Origin: Alphaproteobacteria bacterium
GTDB lineage: Bacteria > Pseudomonadota > Alphaproteobacteria > Bin65
Direction of reading: 5' to 3'
Assembly (NCBI GenBank): GCA_021776685.1
Contig: JAJFFJ010000034.1
Location: 1 to 36,986 of the forward strand
DNA: 36,986 bases
Position 1 is the first letter of the stretch. Every line of letters begins with the position of its first letter. Both the position numbers and the translations under genes were made by a program. Under the pieces are notes generated by a model that did not search any database, was not told the DNA's origin, and worked only from the letters and a program-made list of their open reading frames with translations. Shown here piece by piece: positions 8,777 through 18,165 of this stretch.

Positions 8777-8835
8777 GCCGGTCGGGTCTCCAGAAAGAGA
8801 AGCTGCGGTATTCCACGGTATTTCGTGAAGCGCGG

Positions 8836-8864
8836 GATATAGCCGCGCCGGCCCACCGGGTCAA
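8836..8864 (-). promoter_or_regulatory. Sigma70-like promoter for rpsT
   Basis: On the minus strand, TTGACC (plus coordinates 8859-8864) is followed after exactly 17 bases by TATATC (8836-8841). The -35 box matches consensus at five of six positions and the -10 box at four of six. Initiation would fall near 8829, giving a leader of about 50 nt before the rpsT ATG. The position and spacing fit a housekeeping promoter that lets rpsT work alone. Confidence 0.6.
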
Positions 8865-9134
8865 CCCATCCGCTGGTTTCGCCCTGGTGCGCGATGCCGC
8901 AGGGGAGCGCCACTGGCATGGTGTGGGCTCGCGGTGTCTCTCACTGGGCGAGGCAATCGACGGGGCGCAGTATCATCAATTGATGCGGTCCAGAACCGCC
9001 ACTTGTGATCGGTTCAGTCGCCATCGACCACAATAGGTCTGGTTGCACCAGGGACCAAATTCACCCAAAATACGCAAATTGAGTGGGGCATGCCGAACAC
9101 CATTGACGGAACTGCACCGAAACGCGAGGCCATC

Positions 9135-9305
9135 ATGCAACACGATCAAAAGTCAAAGACCGCCTCTGACCAAGAGCTGGAATACAGCGAATTGCTCGGA
9201 TTGGATCAGGTTCATGCCGCATCACCGGACGCGGCAAAACCAACCCGGAAGGCAGCCGGGGCATTGCTTTCAAAGATTGGTGTGGGCGAGATTTCTCCCA
9301 ATTGA
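9135..9305 (+). CDS. Small peptide 1, candidate modified-peptide precursor
   Basis: A 56-residue peptide: a polar N-terminus (MQHDQKSK), an acidic stretch ELEYSELLGLDQVHA, then the basic and amphipathic block DAAKPTRKAAGALLSKIG, and a variable tail VGEISPN. It has no Cys, no signal peptide and no double-Gly processing site. A second copy of the same length starts 380 bp downstream. The ATG at 9135 has GAGG five bases upstream. An in-frame ATG at 9090 is not conserved in the second unit, so it is rejected. The position before a HExxH peptide-hydroxylase homologue and an adenylation-carrier-thioesterase protein suggests a ribosomally made precursor, with the acidic half as leader and the C-terminal part as core. 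The function is inference; I do not recognise the peptide family. Confidence 0.7.
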   Translation: MQHDQKSKTASDQELEYSELLGLDQVHAASPDAAKPTRKAAGALLSKIGVGEISPN

Positions 9306-9315
9306 TGCGGGCTCT

Positions 9316-9336
9316 GGGGGCCCCAGTGTGGCCCCC
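9316..9336 (+). terminator. Hairpin after peptide 1 (attenuator-like)
   Basis: GGGGGCC at 9316-9322 and GGCCCCC at 9330-9336 form a perfect 7-bp stem with a 7-nt loop, 10 bases after the peptide 1 stop codon. There is no T-tract, so it is more likely an RNA-stabilising or partial-attenuation element than a full terminator. A weaker hairpin sits at the same place after peptide 2. Confidence 0.35.
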
Positions 9337-9514
9337 GCATGACGCATGTATCCTGGCATTTGTATGAGGTCCGGAACCGGCATTTTTCGTTGGTCCGGTC
9401 GCCAACGCTCACGTTGCACCTGATTGCATTAGGGACCGAACTCGCCCAGACTACGTAAAGAAATGGGGCACGCCGGACACTGTTGGCGGAACTGCACAGA
9501 AACGCGAGGCCATC

Positions 9515-9685
9515 ATGCATAACGACCAAAACCAAAATTTGACGCCTGACAAAGAGCTGGATTACAGCGAATTGCTCGGACTGGATCATGTTCATGCGGT
9601 GTCTTCGGACGCGGCAAAACCAACCCGGAAGGCAGCCGGGGCATTGCTTTCAAAGATTGGTCTCTCCGAGACTCTTTCCGAATAA
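9515..9685 (+). CDS. Small peptide 2, paralogue of peptide 1
   Basis: A 56-residue paralogue of the peptide at 9135, exactly the same length. Conserved segments are DYSELLGLD, VHA and DAAKPTRKAAGALLSKIG; the N-terminus (MHNDQNQN) and the tail (LSETLSE) vary. The same GAGG ribosome-binding site lies five bases before the ATG. Amino-acid conservation is strongest in the middle and C-terminal helix-like block and weakest at both ends. Two near-identical precursors before one set of modifying enzymes is a common RiPP arrangement. The product could be a modified antimicrobial or signalling peptide, but no transporter, protease or immunity gene is recognisable in the window. Confidence 0.7.
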   Translation: MHNDQNQNLTPDKELDYSELLGLDHVHAVSSDAAKPTRKAAGALLSKIGLSETLSE

Positions 9686-9688
9686 TGC

Positions 9689-9706
9689 GGGCCCAGGTGG
9701 TCCTTT
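9689..9706 (+). terminator. Hairpin after peptide 2 (attenuator-like)
   Basis: GGGCC (9689-9693) can pair with GGTCC (9699-9703) through one G-U pair, followed by TTT. It lies at the position equivalent to the hairpin after peptide 1. It is short, so at most a weak attenuator that would let peptide transcripts exceed those of the downstream enzymes. Confidence 0.25.
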
Positions 9707-9728
9707 CATAGTCAGAGAATATTGTGAA

Positions 9729-9785
9729 ATGCGCTTGTTGATGGCCCCGAAGGCGCGTCCGCGTCTGCGAGGCATCGGCAAGTAA
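9729..9785 (+). CDS. Possible 18-residue basic micro-ORF
   Basis: An ATG-initiated 18-codon ORF rich in Arg, Lys and Pro (MRLLMAPKARPRLRGIGK) ends 15 bp before the GTG of the HExxH gene. No clear Shine-Dalgarno sequence precedes it. It could be a translational leader for the downstream gene or chance. I see no second copy, and confidence is low. Confidence 0.15.
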   Translation: MRLLMAPKARPRLRGIGK

Positions 9786-9800
9786 TTGTGAGGGTAGCTT

Positions 9801-10781
9801 GTGGGCGTCGATCTCTTAGTTTCAGGGGAAAGCCTGGAAGAACTCGACGCCGGTATTCGTGACCGTCTGGCCCAGAGCCTTGAACACGTGGTTGCCAGGT
9901 CAGGGCCTTCGCTGGGGGCAGATCCTGCGCGGTGTCAGTCAGCTTTCAACCGCATCAGACAGCATCGACAGCATCCCCGGGTCTTCGCCCATTACTACGA
10001 AATGGTGTTTGCGATCGGCGAGGGCCGGCAGGATGATGCCGGCGCCCATCTTGATGTCATTCTTGAGCAAAGCAGGCAGCCGGTCAGCTTTTCGATAGAC
10101 GCCTATTCGCAAGAGACGTTGGGGCCCGACTACGAGCTATTCCCCCGTCTTTTGTTTGCCGAGAAGGCCGGCGCCAACCCGATGACGCCACCGCCTCCCG
10201 CGCTGTTCAGGGAAAGCACACAAAATCTTGAAGACGCTCTGGAGATTGTCGAACGCGTCGACCCCGTGATTTTCGACCAGATCAGGGCGCTGTTTTCCAA
10301 GATTTACATAACCTGCGGCGCGAGCAACTCCGGCGACATGGCATATGCGGGCGCCACATCCTTTATGGTTTGGGGTGCCACCTTCCTGAACGCGAACGAG
10401 TATGCGAGCCAGTGGAAGGCGGTTCAGTTTTTGGTGCACGAAGCGACCCACGCCCTGTTGTTTGCGCTGTGCAGTACTGAGCCGGTGGTGACCAATCCAC
10501 CGGACGAACTCTTCAAGTCTCCCTTGAGGTCTGACCTGCGCCCGATGGATGGAATCTTCCACGCCACCCTGGTCTGCGCGCGCATCACATGGTTCAACCG
10601 GAAATGGCTCGAAAATTGCGAACTGGATCCCGCCGGGATGGACCATATGGAGGTCTATACAAACCTCCATGCCCAGGCCTGTCTGGATGGGATTGACGTT
10701 GTGAAGCGGCACGGGGTCCTGACGGACAGCGGCCGCCGACTGCTTGAACAGGCTCAGACGGCCGATGTTGCAACGGCATGA
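9801..10781 (+). CDS. HExxH-type putative peptide beta-hydroxylase (alpha-ketoglutarate dependent family)
   Basis: A 326-residue protein. HEATH at 213-217 is an HExxH metal-binding motif, followed by SPLRSDLRPMDGIFHATLVCAR in outline: Arg247, Pro248, Asp250, Gly251 and His254 match the conserved RPxDGxxH block of the HEXXH RiPP-associated family now described as alpha-ketoglutarate-dependent peptide beta-hydroxylases. His213, His217 and His254 are the likely iron ligands. In that family the fold resembles a metallopeptidase but the reaction is oxygenation of a precursor peptide side chain. A GTG start with GAGGG six bases upstream is used; no ATG fits. The stop overlaps the next start by 4 bp (ATGA), implying translational coupling. 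The alternative is a true zinc peptidase that cleaves the leader. Confidence 0.75.
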   Translation: MGVDLLVSGESLEELDAGIRDRLAQSLEHVVARSGPSLGADPARCQSAFNRIRQHRQHPRVFAHYYEMVFAIGEGRQDDAGAHLDVILEQSRQPVSFSIDAYSQETLGPDYELFPRLLFAEKAGANPMTPPPPALFRESTQNLEDALEIVERVDPVIFDQIRALFSKIYITCGASNSGDMAYAGATSFMVWGATFLNANEYASQWKAVQFLVHEATHALLFALCSTEPVVTNPPDELFKSPLRSDLRPMDGIFHATLVCARITWFNRKWLENCELDPAGMDHMEVYTNLHAQACLDGIDVVKRHGVLTDSGRRLLEQAQTADVATA

Positions 10782-13438
10782 ATGCGGAAATAGAGACGCC
10801 GACGGTTGAGAAGCCGGAGGCGCTTCCGGACACCCTGTCCGGCCTCCTCAAGCACTTTGTAACGGCGATGCCGCACGGCCGGTTGGTGGAGGTGACGCTC
10901 GATGGCCGGCTTGGATCTGCCCGCCATGATGAGATGTACCGGCAGGCCGTGAGCCTTGCGCGGCATCTGGATGCCGTCGGTACCTCCCCCGACGCGACGC
11001 TGATCCTCTGTTTTCAAAGCGTGCTCGATTTTGTTCCGGCGGCCTGGGCGGCCATCATCGGAAATTACTCGCACATACCTGTACAGATTCTCTCAACCGC
11101 CAAGGCCGATGAGGAACTTGCCGCAAGGCTGCCACAGCTGAAGGAGCGGCTTAACCCTGACCTGATTGTGACAAGTGATTCTTTGAAGCGTCGCATCCTC
11201 GCCAGGGGCGATCTCTGGTGCGCGAAGACAATTGTTTCCATTGACGAGCCCGGCGCATCGCCAGCGGTGTCCGCGCCTGAACGCGAAGAAATTGCGGCCG
11301 CACGACAGGGTAAACTGTTGCTGGCGACATCCGGCACGACGGATCAGCCCAAAATTGCCTGTATCGGATTCGAAACACTGTTGCAGCGGTATTTCGCGAA
11401 CCATGCCCTGCTATCCAGGTTTTCCGGTCTGAACGCGTCCCCGTTCGATGGCACCACGGGCCATGCTGTCATTTTTCCAAGCCATTCCAGCCGGGTCTAC
11501 ATACATCCAGCCCGCGCCCTGAACGCACCGGCCGATCTGCTCGCCGCAATCGGAAAATACAAAATCCAGTTGATTGGTGCGTCCACGTCACTGGCGGCAA
11601 AAATCTGTGATGCGGCTGAGACATCAGACGGGCAAGGCGATCTGTCCTCCATAAGACATGTTGCAATGGGCGCGGAAATGATTGTGCCGGCGGTCGTAAG
11701 CCGGCTGGTCGACAATCTGGAGCGATCCGGCGCCACCGGCTACACAATGACCCTATCCTATGGCTCCACCGAGAGTGGTGGCATTTGCAGGACCCGGGAC
11801 ATGAGTGGGTCTGAGACGCTCCGGCATCTGGAAGCGAGCCCCACTGCTGTTTCCCTTGGGGGGTGCCGCCCCGGCTGCGCCCTTCGCATCGTCGATGGTG
11901 GCGATCTGCCTTTGCCCGTGGGATCTGTAGGCAATATCCAGATTAAATCGCCGCAAAAACTCTTCGATGGCTATGTCGGCGCGTCAGGTCTGGATCGATC
12001 TTCCTTTACCTCGGACGAATGGTTTCGGACCGGTGATCTCGGTTTGATCGAAGATGGCGAGCTGAAAATTACCGGCCGCGAGAAATCGACGATCATCATC
12101 AACGCGCAGAATATCTCACTGGAGCAAATAGAGGGCGCGCTTCGGCAGGTTGAAGACGTTGGGGAAATTGTTGCCTGCGCCGTGCGGTGGCCCGAGGCGC
12201 TGACCGACGATCTGGCCATTTATTTTGTGCAGCTGGAGGGGGACACGGCGCATCTTGACGATCTATGTCAGGAAATAGCGAAGGAGGTGAGCCATCAGTT
12301 CGGCATTCTCCCCCGGCACCTGATTCCGATCGCAAGCAGCGAAATCAAACGCACTCCCGGCGGCAAAGTGCAACGAGACGCCCTGTCCGCAGGGTACCTC
12401 GCGGGCCAATGGCCTGCCCATGATCCCCTGTTGCACGCCCATACCGAATCACCGCCTGTTGCGGGCGACCTTGAACCCTGGCTGGCCGGGCTTTGGAAAT
12501 CCCTTTTGAAGCTCGATGCCGATCCACGGCCTGACGAAAACTTCTTCGACCTGGGCGGTGATTCGCTCGCTGCCGCAGAGATGCTTTTTTCGGTCGAGGA
12601 GCATTGCCGGGTGCGGTTGGCGCTGCCCATGTTTTTCGACGCGCCGACATTGACCACCCTCGCCGGGCTGGTGACCTCAACAGATCCTGCCTCCCCCGCG
12701 GTGCAAAGGCCGGCCAGCGTGGGCCAGCAGCAACCGGACATCATGCGGACACTCGAGCGATTTGCAGCAAGCTGGCGGGGCGCGCGAAAATTCCCTGAAG
12801 CGATGATCGTGGGGCACAACACCGCCGGCTCTGCGACCCCACTGTTCTGGGTTTTCCAGACTGACTACGAACTGGCGCAGCTTGCGCGGCATCTCGGTCC
12901 TGACCAACCGCTCTACGGTATGCGCTCGCTGGATCATATCGTTGCGCCGAAGGACTACACGCGGGAACTCCTCGGGCCCGTTTGTGATCGGTATCTTTGG
13001 GAGATGTTGGCGCTGGGACTTCCGGACCCCATTGCGATTGGAGGCAATTGCCAAGGCGCGATTGTCGCGCTCATGCTCGCCCAGCGGCTGACGATGATCG
13101 GACGTCCGCCCGGGGCGCTGGTCTTGATGGAGTGGTCCTATTCCCATGGGCCCTATGATGGGCCGACGCTGATCATCTATGGCGAGGAGAGCTATACGGC
13201 GAAGTTCTACCAGGAAGACCTGGAAATCGGCCCCCGCTGGCGGCGGGATTTCAAGCAGGTGGAGGCGGCGGCGATCGGTGGTCCCCACGGGCAATTCTTC
13301 GATGAACCGGGGGTTAGCGAGCTCGCAGGCATATTGGGCGACTATCTGGGATCACCAATACCGAGAAGGCCCTGTTCGCCAGCGTCGGCCACAAGAGGCT
13401 TCAGGCTTCCTTGGCTCCGCAGGAGGCGTGGGGCGTAG
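10778..13438 (+). CDS. NRPS-like adenylation / carrier / thioesterase protein (A-T-TE), no condensation domain
   Basis: An 886-residue, three-domain protein. Adenylation domain about 20-540: P-loop TSGTTDQPK (184-192), SYGSTESGG (327-335), FRTGDL (416-421), GREKSTIIINAQN (433-445) and catalytic Lys530. The hinge region resembles fatty acyl-AMP ligases as much as amino-acid domains, so the substrate may be an acyl or an amino acid. Carrier domain about 565-635: DLGGDSL, with phosphopantetheine Ser596. Thioesterase about 685-858: GGNCQG places Cys758 where Ser is usual, and GPHGQF gives His837. A basic tail (about 862-886) follows. It would activate one building block, hold it on the carrier and release or transfer it, possibly to the peptides or to a small molecule. 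Overlap with the HExxH gene suggests one pathway. Confidence 0.85.
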   Translation: MNAEIETPTVEKPEALPDTLSGLLKHFVTAMPHGRLVEVTLDGRLGSARHDEMYRQAVSLARHLDAVGTSPDATLILCFQSVLDFVPAAWAAIIGNYSHIPVQILSTAKADEELAARLPQLKERLNPDLIVTSDSLKRRILARGDLWCAKTIVSIDEPGASPAVSAPEREEIAAARQGKLLLATSGTTDQPKIACIGFETLLQRYFANHALLSRFSGLNASPFDGTTGHAVIFPSHSSRVYIHPARALNAPADLLAAIGKYKIQLIGASTSLAAKICDAAETSDGQGDLSSIRHVAMGAEMIVPAVVSRLVDNLERSGATGYTMTLSYGSTESGGICRTRDMSGSETLRHLEASPTAVSLGGCRPGCALRIVDGGDLPLPVGSVGNIQIKSPQKLFDGYVGASGLDRSSFTSDEWFRTGDLGLIEDGELKITGREKSTIIINAQNISLEQIEGALRQVEDVGEIVACAVRWPEALTDDLAIYFVQLEGDTAHLDDLCQEIAKEVSHQFGILPRHLIPIASSEIKRTPGGKVQRDALSAGYLAGQWPAHDPLLHAHTESPPVAGDLEPWLAGLWKSLLKLDADPRPDENFFDLGGDSLAAAEMLFSVEEHCRVRLALPMFFDAPTLTTLAGLVTSTDPASPAVQRPASVGQQQPDIMRTLERFAASWRGARKFPEAMIVGHNTAGSATPLFWVFQTDYELAQLARHLGPDQPLYGMRSLDHIVAPKDYTRELLGPVCDRYLWEMLALGLPDPIAIGGNCQGAIVALMLAQRLTMIGRPPGALVLMEWSYSHGPYDGPTLIIYGEESYTAKFYQEDLEIGPRWRRDFKQVEAAAIGGPHGQFFDEPGVSELAGILGDYLGSPIPRRPCSPASATRGFRLPWLRRRRGA

Positions 13439-13579
13439 CATCGCCAGCCTGTCGGTGAATTCGCCGCTCTGGCGCAAATGCCTGCAAAGTGTGTGGGCGT
13501 CGCTGATACTAAAATACCTCAGCCCAAATGGGCCAGACCGACTGTCAGCAGGGCAATGAGAGAGACTTGGGTACACAGA
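13439..13579. other. Gap between the A-T-TE gene and the aromatic operon promoter
   Basis: About 140 bp with no convincing gene. A small GCCC/GGGC inverted repeat near 13525-13536 is too weak to call a terminator. This gap separates the peptide locus from the aromatic operon, which has its own promoter. Confidence 0.4.
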
Positions 13580-13608
13580 TTGACTCCGTGCTAGATGGTA
13601 TTTAATAA
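13580..13608 (+). promoter_or_regulatory. Candidate sigma70 promoter of the ring-dioxygenase operon
   Basis: TTGACT (13580-13585, five of six consensus positions), 17 bases, then TAATAA (13603-13608, three of six). A better -10-like TTTAAT overlaps at 13601 but gives only 15-bp spacing. The palindrome at 13609-13626 starts right after the -10 box, where a repressor would block initiation. The leader to the first ATG is about 60-70 nt and contains a small AGGGG/CCCCT hairpin (13646-13659). Confidence 0.45.
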
Positions 13609-13626
13609 ACCGTCTGGACGGACGGT
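13609..13626. promoter_or_regulatory. Probable TetR-family operator
   Basis: ACCGTC, six bases, GACGGT: a perfect inverted repeat. A nested palindrome CCGTC-TG-GACGG at 13610-13621 is also perfect. It lies directly downstream of the -10 box of the dioxygenase operon, whose last gene encodes a TetR-type regulator, so negative autoregulation is the simple reading. Confidence 0.5.
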
Positions 13627-13679
13627 AAGTAGATACGGCCCATCCAGGGGTAGGCCCCTCATGATTGCGGGAGGAAGAA

Positions 13680-14960
13680 ATGACCGGGACCAACGGCAGC
13701 TATGTGCAGGTCAACGAAAACCTGAAAACTTTCAAGGTCTCTCGGCAGGCCTTCGTGGATCCGGCGGTGACGGAGGCCGAGTATGCAGAGATATTCGACA
13801 AGTGCTGGCTGTATCTGGGCCACGAGTCTGAGCTTGAAAAGCCGCATGATTTCCTGACCCGCAAGGTCGCCAAGCGCAATATCCTGTTCACGCGGGACGC
13901 GGACGGGGAATTCCAGGCTTTTCTCAACACCTGTCCGCATCGGGGCGCCTCTGTCTGCCGGGAGCGCAATGGCAACGCCAAATCCTTTCAATGCATGTAT
14001 CACGGCTGGGTCTTTGGCAATGACGGCGGCCTGAAACACCTGCCGGGCGAAGAGTCGTATCCTGAGGGCTTCCGGGAAAATGGAAGCGGCAACCTCACGC
14101 CGGTAGCCCATCTCGACAGTTGCGCGGGATTCTGGTTCGTCTGCTTCGATCCCAACGCACCCAGCCTGGACGACTATCTGGGCGACGCGAAGCCCTATAT
14201 CGAACTGGTGTCGCTGCATTCGAAGCACGGAATGGAGATTGTCGGCGGCACCCAGGAATACGCCATCCGGTCAAACTGGAAGTTACTGACCGAAAACAGC
14301 GTCGACGGCTATCACGCCGAATCCACCCATGCGACCTATATGGACTACCTGCTGAATGTGAACGGCGGCCTGATCAAACAGCCCCTGGAAGGGCGGGAAT
14401 TCGACCTGGGCAACGGCCACGCGGTGCTGGAGTACAAGGCCCCCTGGGGCCGGCCAATCGCCCAGTGGGTGCCCATGTGGGGTGAGGAGGTGCAGGCGGA
14501 GCTGGAGATCGTCAAGGCGGAGCTGGTGGAGAGGCTGGGAGAGGATCGGGCGGAACGCATCGCCCACTACAACCGCAATCTGCTTATCTTCCCGAATCTG
14601 GTTATCAACGACATCATGGCGATCACCGTGCGCACCTATTACCCGGACGCGCCGGATTACATGAATGTCAATGCCTGGGCGCTGGCGCCCCGCCAGGAAG
14701 TAGACTGGGCACGGGAATATCGCCTGTTCAATTTTCTCGAATTTCTGGGCCCCGGCGGCTTCGCGACACCCGACGACGTGGAAGCCATGGAGAAGTGCCA
14801 GATCGGCTATCAGAATCTCAAGGAGGCTGGCTGGAACGACATTTCGAAAGGTATGGGCCGGGCCGAGCCGTCTTATGACGATGAGGCGCAGATGCGCGCC
14901 TTCTGGACCGAATGGCAGTCGCGCATCGACCGCGCGGCCGCCGTTGGTTTGGCGGCCTGA
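13680..14960 (+). CDS. Aromatic ring-hydroxylating dioxygenase, alpha subunit (Rieske)
   Basis: A 426-residue large oxygenase subunit. Rieske [2Fe-2S] ligands are Cys85, His87, Cys105 and His108 (CPHRGA and CMYHGW). The mononuclear iron site is [12 protein letters not shown], with Asp209, His212 and His217, and a distal acid lies in the [11 protein letters not shown] region. All catalytic residues appear intact. The enzyme would add dioxygen to an aromatic ring, giving a cis-dihydrodiol, using electrons from a Rieske ferredoxin (gene at 17172). The substrate is unknown; the family spans benzoate, biphenyl, cinnamate and related compounds. An upstream TTG at 13665 is in frame but lies within the GGGAGGAAGAA ribosome-binding region of the ATG at 13680, so the latter is used. 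It starts a six-gene operon. Confidence 0.92.
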
Positions 14961-14974
14961 GGGGAGGGCGAAAA

Positions 14975-15463
14975 ATGACTTTCCAGATAACCCGTGACGA
15001 AGCGGAAGACTTTATCTTCGCCGAGGCCGATATGCTCGACGACTGGGAGCTTGAGGACTGGTTGGCGCTTTTCGTCGATGACGCTGTCTACAATGTGCCG
15101 TCGACCGACCTCGACAAGTCCGCCCAGGCTGCAAACAACCTGTTCTACATCGCGGACGACCGGGGCCGACTGGAAGAGCGGGTGACGCGGCTGAAGAAGA
15201 AAACCGCGCATGCCGAATTTCCACGATCCAAGACCCGGCATCTGATCAGCAACGTCCGCGTCCGCGAGACCGACGCCGACTCGGCAACGGTGACAACGGC
15301 CTTTGCCACTTTTCGTTCAAAAGACGGGATAACCGATACCTACATCGGCAGTACCAGATACAAGCTGGTCCGGCCGAACGGCACCCTCAAAATTGCTGAA
15401 AAATGGTGTTTCCTGGACATGGACGGCCTTCGTCCCCAGGGCCGCATCAGCATCCTGCTGTAG
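14975..15463 (+). CDS. Aromatic ring-hydroxylating dioxygenase, beta subunit
   Basis: A 162-residue small subunit of the Rieske oxygenase, of the SnoaL/NTF2-like fold: an N-terminal helix with EAEDFIFAEADMLDDWELEDWLALF and a C-terminal strand block ending in GRISILL. It lacks cofactors and completes the alpha3beta3 oxygenase with the preceding gene. The ATG at 14975 follows a strong GGGGAGGG site; earlier in-frame starts overlap the alpha gene and are not used. The gap to the alpha gene is 14 bp. Confidence 0.9.
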   Translation: MTFQITRDEAEDFIFAEADMLDDWELEDWLALFVDDAVYNVPSTDLDKSAQAANNLFYIADDRGRLEERVTRLKKKTAHAEFPRSKTRHLISNVRVRETDADSATVTTAFATFRSKDGITDTYIGSTRYKLVRPNGTLKIAEKWCFLDMDGLRPQGRISILL

Positions 15464-15473
15464 AGCGCTGGCG

Positions 15474-16376
15474 ATGACGGTGAACTATCGGTACAGGCGG
15501 CTGGGCTATGCGGCGTTGAATGTTACGGACCTTGCACGGACCGTCGCCTTCTACACAGACATCGTTGGCCTCGACATCTCAGTAGTTGAGGAGGGCAGGC
15601 AGGCGGCATTGCGCTGCGGGCCCGATCACCACAACATCCTGCTGACACAGGCCGCCGAGCCGGGGTTGAAGCGTGTCGGATTCGAGCTTGAGTCAGACGG
15701 CGATCTTGATCGGGCCCATGCCCATCTGGCGGGGCAGGGCTATGCGCCGGTCTGGGTGGATGACGCGGAGACGGCTGCGCTGGGCCAGGGGCGAACCTTG
15801 CGCTTCCGGCATCCCGGCGCGGGACTGCAGCTTGAGTATTTCGTGGGCATGACGCAGATGGATGCGCCGTTTGAAGGCCGGCTGGCGAAGATTGCGCGCC
15901 TGGGTCACGTGGTCGTCTGCGCCACCGATCCGGCGGCCATGCGCGATTCGCTGGTCAGCGATCTGGGCTTTCTCGTATCTGACGAGGTCGACGGGCTGGT
16001 CTCGTTTCTGCGCTGCTTCCCCAACAAGTATCACCACTCCTTTGCCGTGGCCCGGGGCGACGAGAATCGCCTGCACCATGTGAACTTTATGGTCACGGAC
16101 ATCGACGATGTGGGCCGGGCCCTGAACCGGCTGAAGGAAAACAACATTGAGATTGTCTATGGGCCGGGCCGGCACCCACCTTCCGGCAGCATCTTTGTCT
16201 ATTTTCTGGATCCGGATGGCATGACGGTCGAATACAGCTTTGGCATGGAGGAGTTTGGCGAGACCGGCGCACGGGAGCCGCGGACCTTGCCCCCTCTACC
16301 TGAATCACTCGACTTTTGGGGCGGTGTTCCCAGTCCCGCCTTTGCCAAGGTTGGCCGGTTTGAGGTGGCGTCATGA
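15474..16376 (+). CDS. Extradiol ring-cleavage dioxygenase (two-domain VOC, type I)
   Basis: A 300-residue vicinal-oxygen-chelate protein with two tandem domains. The N-terminal domain begins LGYAALNVTDLARTVAFY; the C-terminal domain carries the expected Fe(II) ligands His145 (LGHVVV), His202 (LHHVNF) and Glu253 (VEYSF). It resembles 2,3-dihydroxybiphenyl/catechol 2,3-dioxygenases and would open the catechol formed by the dioxygenase plus dehydrogenase. Start ATG 15474 lies 10 bp after the beta-subunit stop. Its stop overlaps the SDR start by 4 bp. The true catechol is unknown. Confidence 0.88.
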   Translation: MTVNYRYRRLGYAALNVTDLARTVAFYTDIVGLDISVVEEGRQAALRCGPDHHNILLTQAAEPGLKRVGFELESDGDLDRAHAHLAGQGYAPVWVDDAETAALGQGRTLRFRHPGAGLQLEYFVGMTQMDAPFEGRLAKIARLGHVVVCATDPAAMRDSLVSDLGFLVSDEVDGLVSFLRCFPNKYHHSFAVARGDENRLHHVNFMVTDIDDVGRALNRLKENNIEIVYGPGRHPPSGSIFVYFLDPDGMTVEYSFGMEEFGETGAREPRTLPPLPESLDFWGGVPSPAFAKVGRFEVAS

Positions 16377-17167
16377 GCCCCGTGCCGGCATCTGATTTCG
16401 GTTTTTCCAATGAGTGGATGAAGGACCGGGTGGCGATCGTTACCGGCGGCGCCAACGGCATCGGTTATGTGATCGCGGAGCGCCTGGCCCGGGACGGCGC
16501 GAAGCTGGCGTTGGGAGATGTGGATGAGACGGCGCTCGGCCAGGCGGCGGCCAGGCTCGAGGAGATTTCCGGACATCCGGTTCCAACCGCTGCCGGCGAT
16601 CTGGCGGAGGAAGCACATGCGACCGCGCTCATCGCTGCTGCGCAGGGTGCCTTCGGGCGTATCGATATTCTGGTGAATAATGCCGGCGGCGGGGTCATCA
16701 GTCCTTTCCTGGAGCACACGCCTGAAACGCTCAAGACTACGATCGACCGGAACCTGTGGACGGCGATCTGGTGCTGTCGTGCTGTACTGCCTGTCATGAT
16801 CGATCAGGGGTATGGCCGCATCGTCAACATCGGGGCGGACTCCGTGCGGAACGGTCTGTGGGATCACGCCGCCTACAATGCCGCCAAGGGCGGCATGCAT
16901 GGACTGACGACTGGCCTGGCGCGGGAATTTGCCGACAGGGGAGTCACGGTGAATACAGTCGCTCCCTGCGCCACACGCACCCCGCAGCTGGACGACTACA
17001 TCGAGAAAAGCCCGGATGTGGCTCAGAAGTTCATCGACATTATCCCCACGGGTCGGCCCGCTGAAATGGCGGAAATCGCCTCCATGGTGTCCTACCTCGC
17101 GTCCGCCGAAGCCGCTTTCGTCACCGGCCAGGTGATCAGCGTCAACGGCGGCAGCACGATGCTGTAG
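16373..17167 (+). CDS. SDR-family dehydrogenase, probable cis-dihydrodiol dehydrogenase
   Basis: A 264-residue classical short-chain dehydrogenase. The NAD(P)-binding motif TGGANGIG (24-31), NNAG (102-105), catalytic Ser157, Tyr168 and Lys172 (YNAAK) are present. In this operon the natural role is to oxidise the cis-dihydrodiol made by the ring dioxygenase to a catechol, the substrate of the extradiol enzyme. Sequence alone cannot exclude another alcohol substrate. It overlaps the upstream gene by ATGA. Confidence 0.85.
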   Translation: MSPVPASDFGFSNEWMKDRVAIVTGGANGIGYVIAERLARDGAKLALGDVDETALGQAAARLEEISGHPVPTAAGDLAEEAHATALIAAAQGAFGRIDILVNNAGGGVISPFLEHTPETLKTTIDRNLWTAIWCCRAVLPVMIDQGYGRIVNIGADSVRNGLWDHAAYNAAKGGMHGLTTGLAREFADRGVTVNTVAPCATRTPQLDDYIEKSPDVAQKFIDIIPTGRPAEMAEIASMVSYLASAEAAFVTGQVISVNGGSTML

Positions 17168-17171
17168 GCCG

Positions 17172-17501
17172 GTGAGCAGCAGGATAAAAGTTTGCGACGT
17201 GGCGGACATGGATCCGGGCGAAATGCGTCAGGCTGAGCTGCCCGGTGGCCACAAAGTGGCGGTCTACAACGTGGATGGCGACTTCTACGCGACGGATGAT
17301 CTCTGCACCCACGGGCAATCCTCCCTCAGCGATGAAGGGATGCTCGACGGCAAGGTTGTTGAGTGCAGCTGGCACTTCGGCGCCTTCGATGTGACCACCG
17401 GCGAGGCGATGCAGATGCCTTGCCGTGAGCCCCTGAAGACCTGGCCGGTGACGGTGCTCGATGGCGTTGTCTGCGTTGTCCTGGAGGAAGAACCCAAATG
17501 A
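17172..17501 (+). CDS. Rieske [2Fe-2S] ferredoxin
   Basis: A 109-residue ferredoxin with the Rieske cluster motifs Cys45-Thr-His47 and Cys65-Ser-Trp-His68. It would pass electrons from a reductase to the ring-hydroxylating oxygenase of the same operon. A GTG start is inferred just after the SDR stop (5 bp) with no strong ribosome-binding site; the family N-terminus fits. No ferredoxin reductase is encoded in the operon or elsewhere in the window. Confidence 0.9.
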   Translation: MSSRIKVCDVADMDPGEMRQAELPGGHKVAVYNVDGDFYATDDLCTHGQSSLSDEGMLDGKVVECSWHFGAFDVTTGEAMQMPCREPLKTWPVTVLDGVVCVVLEEEPK

Positions 17502-18112
17502 CGGCCCAGCTCAAACCCCGCCGCACCCAGCAGGAGCGACGCGAGGAAACCAGCGAGCGAATCATCAACGCCGCGTTCGACGTGATCAAGCGGCGCGGCT
17601 ACTCCGGCTTTCGGATCGCCGAGGTTCAGGATGTGGCCGGTGTGTCCCGCGGCGCGCTGCTCCATCATTTCCCGACCAAGGAGACTCTGGCGCTGGCGGC
17701 TCTGGAATATGCCTTCGCTGAATCACGCGCCGACGCCGAGGCGCGGGCGGCGCAACTGGAAAGCGCGGATGATCCGATCGGTGAAATCATCCGCAACAGC
17801 GAGGCCTTCTTCTTTGGCGACCATTTCCTGGTTGCGCTGGATATCCTCATGTCTGCGGGCAAGGACCCGTCGATCCGGTCGAAGGTCCAGTCGATATCCC
17901 GTACGCACCGGCTGCCTGTGGAGATGGCGTGGCTGGATGTGCTGCGCGCGGCCAAGGTCCCGGAGGATGTTGCCGAGGATATCCTTTGGCTCACCATCAG
18001 CATGGTCCGCGGCATGGCGATCCGCGCCTTCTGGCAGGATGAGCCTGCCCGGTTCCAGCATCTGTATGCCCGCTGGCAGGATATGGTCAGGACCTACCTG
18101 AAAGCAGTGTGA
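17498..18112 (+). CDS. TetR/AcrR-family transcriptional regulator
   Basis: A 204-residue regulator. The N-terminal helix-turn-helix (about 12-60) contains ERIINAAFDVIKRRGYSGFR and the recognition region VAGVSRGALLHHFPTKE. The C-terminal helical ligand-binding domain is variable. It overlaps the ferredoxin gene by 4 bp and is the last gene of the dioxygenase operon, so it probably represses the operon through the palindrome at 13609 until the aromatic substrate or a metabolite binds. The effector is unknown. Confidence 0.9.
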   Translation: MTAQLKPRRTQQERREETSERIINAAFDVIKRRGYSGFRIAEVQDVAGVSRGALLHHFPTKETLALAALEYAFAESRADAEARAAQLESADDPIGEIIRNSEAFFFGDHFLVALDILMSAGKDPSIRSKVQSISRTHRLPVEMAWLDVLRAAKVPEDVAEDILWLTISMVRGMAIRAFWQDEPARFQHLYARWQDMVRTYLKAV

Positions 18113-18118
18113 TCCTGG

Positions 18119-18165
18119 ACAAACCGCAGTCGAATGGGGTCAGGCTTCCGCCCCTAGCGGTTTGT
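18119..18165. terminator. Bidirectional stem-loop at the tetR / enoyl-CoA hydratase junction
   Basis: A perfect 9-bp inverted repeat, ACAAACCGC at 18119-18127 and GCGGTTTGT at 18157-18165, with an inner GGGG/CCCC pair. It lies between two convergent genes and includes the hydratase stop codon. There is no clear T-run on either strand, so it is a candidate bidirectional terminator rather than a textbook one. Confidence 0.4.

Follow-up and report, generated by a model that had tools for sequence, protein, structure and literature searches.

A candidate RiPP cassette joining an aKG-HExxH enzyme to a stand-alone adenylation-carrier-thioesterase protein in an alphaproteobacterium

Introduction

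Members of the aKG-HExxH-type peptide hydroxylase family (TIGR04267) whose activity is proven in the work cited here act on precursor peptides, in which the residues hydroxylated are Asp, His, Gln, Phe-type or Pro (PMC12636437, PMC13060819, PMC12707348). ChlH/ChlBH, BipH of biphenomycin, PflC/PosC and PesO of the nitrilobacillins belong to this family, and in their pathways a short precursor gene lies alongside that of the enzyme, which acts on residues of the peptide. PflC and PosC combine Gln hydroxylation with oxidative cleavage of the backbone at ARMD, yielding an amide, in clusters without a protease (PMC12636437), whereas other HExxH members of known activity hydroxylate without cutting (PMC13060819).

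Acyl transfer to a ribosomal peptide has been described for nosiheptide. NosI serves to activate an indolic acid, which is carried on NosJ, and NosK, a protein of alpha/beta-hydrolase fold, releases the acid so that it can be transferred to the peptide (PMC5585349). Furthermore, the work on SulM describes cysteine as the less common thioesterase nucleophile, and the Cys enzymes SulM and ObiF close four-membered rings (PMC11298585).

Here we describe a locus in which a HExxH enzyme is combined with an adenylation-carrier-thioesterase (A-T-TE) protein. The window, by which we mean the whole stretch of DNA analysed, is the 36,986-nt contig JAJFFJ010000034.1 of Alphaproteobacteria bacterium (GCA_021776685.1). 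On balance, we favour the reading of this locus as a RiPP cassette, in which the precursors would be oxidised at their core while the A-T-TE protein would load an acid that its Cys-thioesterase transfers to the peptide.

The cassette and its genomic setting

The cassette runs from two peptide ORFs through an aKG-HExxH gene to an overlapping A-T-TE gene, and within it neither a protease nor a transporter or exporter nor a condensation domain is encoded. Relatives keep mutM, echA and rpsT in a tight order, in which echA and rpsT are about 100 bp apart; at this point the window carries a 9.4-kb insert (8777-18153) with the peptide cassette and, at 13680-17164, an operon for a Rieske ring-hydroxylating dioxygenase. 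The G+C content is 0.56-0.60 inside the cassette compared with 0.63-0.65 outside, and a HExxH gene is absent from all ten other genomes examined of the window's order. Given the split gene order, the low G+C and the lack of HExxH genes in these ten genomes, the cassette looks acquired.

A plasmid search returned no matches with the peptide query and only distant family members with the HExxH query. Promoter and terminator scans of the locus gave nothing useful, and terminator-like sites within the peptide twins were rejected as being the coding repeat itself. The genome has one phosphopantetheinyl transferase match, and the product could serve as primer of the carrier domain.

Precursor peptides

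The two peptide ORFs, both of 56 aa with an ATG start on the forward strand, lie at 9135-9305 (MQHDQ...YSELLGLD...AAGALLSKIGVGEISPN) and 9515-9685 (MHNDQ...YSELLGLD...AAGALLSKIGLSETLSE). Each holds a counterpart of the leader motif LDxSKLLGF, which reads LEYSELLGLD in the first (9177-9206) and LDYSELLGLD in the second (9557-9586), and a core motif LLSKIG (9264-9281 and 9644-9661, respectively), and neither peptide contains Cys. The tandem pair of paralogous 56-codon ORFs recorded in the initial annotation is indeed present, the two being 71% identical. Since the DNA upstream of both ORFs is also alike, the twins look like the result of a tandem duplication of about 380 bp.

Chance open frames in duplicated DNA could resemble such a pair, and the twins themselves leave some room for this explanation: the ORFs have no database family match, and their 23 changed codons comprise four synonymous and 19 non-synonymous ones, so that dN/dS is near 1 and, on so few changes, the pair alone is no proof of coding. 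That they are not genes is nevertheless highly improbable, because conservation across genomes proves their coding status, the motif and its position being shared across dozens of loci. In a blind test, a peptide profile built only from loci without A-T-TE (ATP-grasp-type peptides of other genomes) put the window's two peptides and seven relatives encoded in A-T-TE loci in the first nine places among 1,241 ORFs; all nine are expected peptides, with no intruder, and the E-values are modest (0.0002 to 0.7). Within the window, the profile from other genomes' peptides selects exactly these two ORFs.

The wider precursor family was collected by using an HExxH alignment as query in a single scan across 84,980 species genomes, which yielded 80 relatives. 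Most of these have a small ORF directly upstream of the HExxH gene, with the leader LDxSKLLGF and a core of K-x-G motifs, often in the form of GAKVG-type repeats. A regular expression for the leader matches 53 of 257 small ORFs directly upstream of HExxH as against 11 of 7,849 that lie at a distance of over 2 kb, and the cores of 49 leader ORFs, picked regardless of K-x-G, contain this motif 167 times, compared with 51 +/- 6 in shuffled cores. Related peptides adjoin the HExxH enzyme in about 50 loci, and across loci the core carries one to nine copies of K-x-G. In agreement with a RiPP assignment, an encoded precursor is thus conserved beside a modifying enzyme across genomes, and a conserved leader is combined with a more variable or repeated core. 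In Histidinibacterium lentulum (L046:8889-9992), five precursor-like ORFs stand in tandem, followed by one HExxH gene. Missing D/E residues in the cores were considered as an argument against graspetide-type rings; this argument was dropped because D/E is absent after the first K-x-G in only 16 of 44 ATP-grasp-type peptides.

The HExxH enzyme

The gene of the aKG-HExxH-type peptide hydroxylase (9801-10781, forward strand, GTG start) encodes 326 aa that match TIGR04267 at E=3.7e-30 (105.2 bits, cut-off 40). Alignments place the HEATH metal-binding motif at 10437-10451 and the RPMDGIFH block at 10539-10562, of which RPMDG and the H are invariant in the A-T-TE clade. The family assignment first made from the HExxH motif and the RPxDGxxH block is therefore secure on both counts, profile score and the pairing of HExxH with an RPxxGxxH block. 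In addition, the family profile matches the solved ChlH structure 8s5f (1.9e-19), with both blocks aligned.

Because related peptides accompany both enzymes in five more genomes and the HExxH enzyme in about 50 loci, they are very likely the substrates of this enzyme, as originally proposed. The short core of the precursors has the motif [LA][LF][SN]K[VIR]G. Since no functional side chain of the core is conserved except that of the lysine, preceded by Ser or Asn in the A-T-TE branch, we infer that this lysine or the residue just before it is the likely site of oxidation.

No protease is encoded nearby, and for this reason another function of the enzyme is a live rival, in which it would mainly cut the peptide oxidatively at K-x-G to give a C-terminal amide, the A-T-TE protein then acting on the released fragment. 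This would parallel PflC and PosC, which cleave at ARMD to give an amide in clusters that also come without a protease (PMC12636437), and repeated cores (two K-x-G copies in Amylibacter kogurei, up to nine elsewhere) would be converted into several short products. Other family members, however, hydroxylate without cutting (PMC13060819), and we regard cleavage as the main activity as unlikely compared with hydroxylation of the core.

Recurrence of the three-part unit

The co-occurrence of the peptides with HExxH and A-T-TE genes in related genomes holds true in five further cases, namely Bauldia (L018), Panacagrimonas (L019), Amylibacter kogurei (L020), Xanthobacter autotrophicus AM3 (L021) and a Hyphomicrobiales MAG (L024). 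In all five, an A-T-TE homologue of 28-38% identity lies directly 3' of the HExxH gene; that of Panacagrimonas is cut by the contig end, and that of the Hyphomicrobiales MAG is read in two frames, one on either side of an ambiguous base. Related peptides are likewise found in each of these five A-T-TE loci outside the window, so that the refutation named in the initial annotation, peptides without conservation beside the two enzymes, did not come about. Bauldia has twin peptides as in the window, A. kogurei carries the core twice inside one peptide, and in X. autotrophicus and the Hyphomicrobiales MAG the peptides lie on the opposite strand. The six HExxH proteins of A-T-TE loci form one clade (support 99/95), and the core tracks the HExxH tree, being SK[VIR]G in the window, Bauldia, Panacagrimonas and A. 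kogurei and NKRG in the other two.

The Hyphomicrobiales locus has two further peculiarities, both on the reverse strand. At L024:8598-9065, the leader and NKRG core of one precursor are fused to a Peptidase_S74 (endosialidase chaperone) domain that scores above the Pfam cut-off; domains of this type cut themselves off, which could release the peptide. Beside the precursors, a small ORF (L024:9550-9705) contains three near-identical repeats, MVKTEEGPTMVRTEEGPAMVRTEEGPV.

Exchange of ligases beside the HExxH gene

An ATP-dependent carboxylate ligase is encoded no more than 4.5 kb from the HExxH gene in 76 of 81 loci. It is of the ATP-grasp type in 69, an A-T-TE protein in six and a lone AMP-ligase in one, a stand-alone 472-residue protein directly 3' of HExxH in a Rhodospirillales MAG (L096:1575-2993). 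The five loci with none in range include one with an ATP-grasp gene 7 kb away, one cut by a contig end, and that of Tabrizicola (L097), where an A-T-TE gene with a TE of the same kind lies at a distance of about 8 kb. In 53 of the 81 loci the ligase within 4.5 kb is a protein of about 320 residues that scores above cut-off with no Pfam model; its structural model (pLDDT 91) resembles RimK, LysX/ArgX and D-Ala ligases (Foldseek 3e-10). Another 16 loci encode a longer, RimK-like ATP-grasp ligase of about 600 residues. A-T-TE and ATP-grasp genes never occur together within 4.5 kb among the 81 HExxH loci, and the window has no ATP-grasp match. On the HExxH tree, the ligase labels need at least 16 changes, compared with 28 when shuffled.

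A carboxylate-activating, ATP-dependent enzyme is a near-constant partner of HExxH, and unrelated folds fill the same place; this exchange of A-T-TE and ATP-grasp ligases is observed directly, as are the genes, their domains and their conserved linkage. Because the partner is near-constant and unrelated folds take its place, the A-T-TE protein presumably has a function in the peptide pathway rather than being a passenger. The cassette of the window represents one branch of this broader family of peptide, HExxH enzyme and ligase.

The A-T-TE protein and its acid

The A-T-TE gene (10778-13438, forward strand, 886 aa) starts with an ATG at 10778, and the HExxH gene ends with its stop at 10781, which confirms the 4-bp overlap (ATGA) of the two genes. 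The adenylation domain (10928-12412) has McyG (4r0m) and then 6ulw as its nearest solved counterparts, and the carrier domain (12479-12670; PF00550, 7.1e-14) holds the phosphopantetheine serine of an LGGDS motif (12563-12565). The remainder (12734-13435) comprises a predicted thioesterase-fold domain and a C-terminal tail. AMP-binding and PP-binding are above the Pfam cut-offs and Thioesterase (PF00975) is below; the thioesterase fold is supported by an AlphaFold2 model (pLDDT 76, from an alignment of only four sequences) that Foldseek matches to NRPS thioesterase domains at E=1.2e-9.

Cysteine (CQG) replaces the usual Ser in every one of the five A-T-TE proteins in which this region is retained. 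In the window its codon lies at 13049-13051 (GGNCQG), as placed by the A-T-TE alignment and the model, in which the residue follows strand 101-105, leading to the nucleophile elbow. The window protein retains the adenylation-domain motifs including PGGK, the LGGDS serine, and the Cys and His of the thioesterase; the thioesterase of X. autotrophicus is without the catalytic histidine. As to the acid, the adenylation domain gives similar scores for the amino-acid, acyl-CoA and fatty-acyl types, in each case far below the cut-offs. Its nearest solved counterparts, McyG and 6ulw, which we take to select acids other than standard amino acids (a small acid in the case of McyG), hint by analogy at an acid outside that set.

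RimK and LysX ligases activate a protein's own carboxylate, RimK acting in such a way on ribosomal protein S6, and adenylation domains activate an external acid, so that the ATP-grasp analogy leaves donor and acceptor unfixed. The ligase might thus activate the carboxylate of the peptide itself, at the C-terminus or a side chain, for tagging or ring closure. The modelled RimK/LysX-like fold of the ATP-grasp counterpart is consistent with such a role, as is the activation of carboxylates by both enzyme types. An adenylation domain that feeds its own carrier arm, however, is better suited to a small acid than to a peptide of 56 residues, and the one in the window is nearest to the presumed small-acid loader McyG, which makes activation of the peptide's own carboxylate quite doubtful.

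Glycan-associated loci and the acceptor

Sister HExxH loci are found among genes of surface-polysaccharide type in L029 and L097 (checked with Pfam) and, by inspection, in L022, L025, L040, L045, L053, L055 and L087, the gene types there being glycosyltransferases, a flippase-like ABC transporter, UDP-glucose dehydrogenase and a TupA ATP-grasp.

The A-T-TE gene of Tabrizicola sits in such a glycan cluster, and on a plasmid of Rhodobacter sp. CZR27 (L110:2591-6478, WP_096788080.1) a C-A-T-TE protein with the same Cys-TE (GGNCQGG) adjoins a glycosyltransferase, with no HExxH gene nearby; because of these two cases, A-T-TE proteins may act on other acceptors. In Bauldia, a sulfotransferase and a mannosyltransferase-type gene lie nearby. 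Release of the acyl group as a free small molecule, or its transfer to a cell-surface glycan, would fit the Rhodobacter and Bauldia settings as well as the related HExxH loci in polysaccharide clusters (two by Pfam, six of those found by inspection). The genes annotated beside the cassettes of the window, A. kogurei and X. autotrophicus, however, are not glycan genes, and both the 4-bp overlap with HExxH and the replacement by ATP-grasp argue for a shared substrate. We consider an acceptor other than the peptide improbable, if worth keeping in mind.

Proposed pathway and its implications

In our preferred reading, with the peptide as acceptor, the leader (LxYSELLGLD, the counterpart of LDxSKLLGF) would be read by the enzymes, and the HExxH protein, as an Fe(II)/alpha-ketoglutarate oxygenase, would oxidise the core, most likely at the conserved lysine or at its immediate N-terminal neighbour. 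The A-T-TE protein would adenylate a carboxylic acid, load it onto its own carrier domain and hand it to the thioesterase cysteine, from which the acyl group would be moved to the lysine amine or the new hydroxyl of the peptide. Leader removal and export would fall to proteins encoded elsewhere, or else the HExxH enzyme may also cut the chain. The substrate link is strong and the acylation plausible; which reactions take place, which group accepts which acid, and in what order, is inferred. We advance more tentatively, at slightly less than even confidence, the full claim that a stand-alone A-T-TE protein with a Cys thioesterase directly (amino)acylates a hydroxylated ribosomal peptide at K-x-G, this module and several ATP-grasp ligases having been repeatedly swapped in one slot.

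If this is correct, ribosomal and thiotemplated logics would be joined in one three-part unit that is small enough to be rebuilt in E. coli, and an NRPS-like acyl donor would be added to the partners of HExxH oxygenases. Furthermore, the LDxSKLLGF leader and K-x-G core would identify many unannotated small ORFs beside HExxH genes, and the loci would offer a clean test of how ligases of unrelated folds, ATP-grasp and adenylation, share one biosynthetic role.

Comparison with known systems

The clusters of ChlH/ChlBH, BipH, PflC/PosC and PesO differ from the present one in their precursors and in their partners (radical SAM, MNIO or nitrile synthetase), and the available parts of their descriptions mention no LDxSKLLGF leader, K-x-G core or A-T-TE partner. 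Graspetides and RimK-type peptide ligases have an ATP-grasp gene beside a precursor, as most sister loci do. The window cassette is set apart from graspetides by having no ATP-grasp gene and with it no graspetide macrocyclase, and the main ATP-grasp family of the sister loci by matching no Pfam model above cut-off and by its oxygenase partner.

SulM and ObiF likewise have a thioesterase fold with Cys at the nucleophile elbow, but their role is to form a beta-lactam or beta-lactone ring in an NRPS assembly line, whereas the A-T-TE protein has no condensation domain. Since closure of a four-membered ring has no obvious substrate here, transfer to an amine or hydroxyl of the peptide is the simpler proposal.

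The initial annotation knew of no described class with these parts. This stands in so far as the open-licence literature gave no matching description of HExxH with ATP-grasp, or with adenylation and thioesterase functions in a RiPP setting. What is new is the precursor family with its NRPS-like partner, which we did not find described in the open literature, while the RiPP kind itself is known. The statement needs qualification with regard to logic, in which NosI-NosJ-NosK of nosiheptide and LclJ-LclI-LclK of lactocillin run parallel, both combining an adenylating enzyme, a carrier and an alpha/beta-hydrolase fold in a RiPP pathway (PMC5585349), a likeness in domains only. The nosiheptide-type systems attach an indolic acid to a thiopeptide cysteine, whereas the peptides of the window are free of Cys; and NosI, NosJ and NosK are separate proteins, with two of the functions fused in NocK of nocathiacin, whereas here all three reside in one polypeptide.
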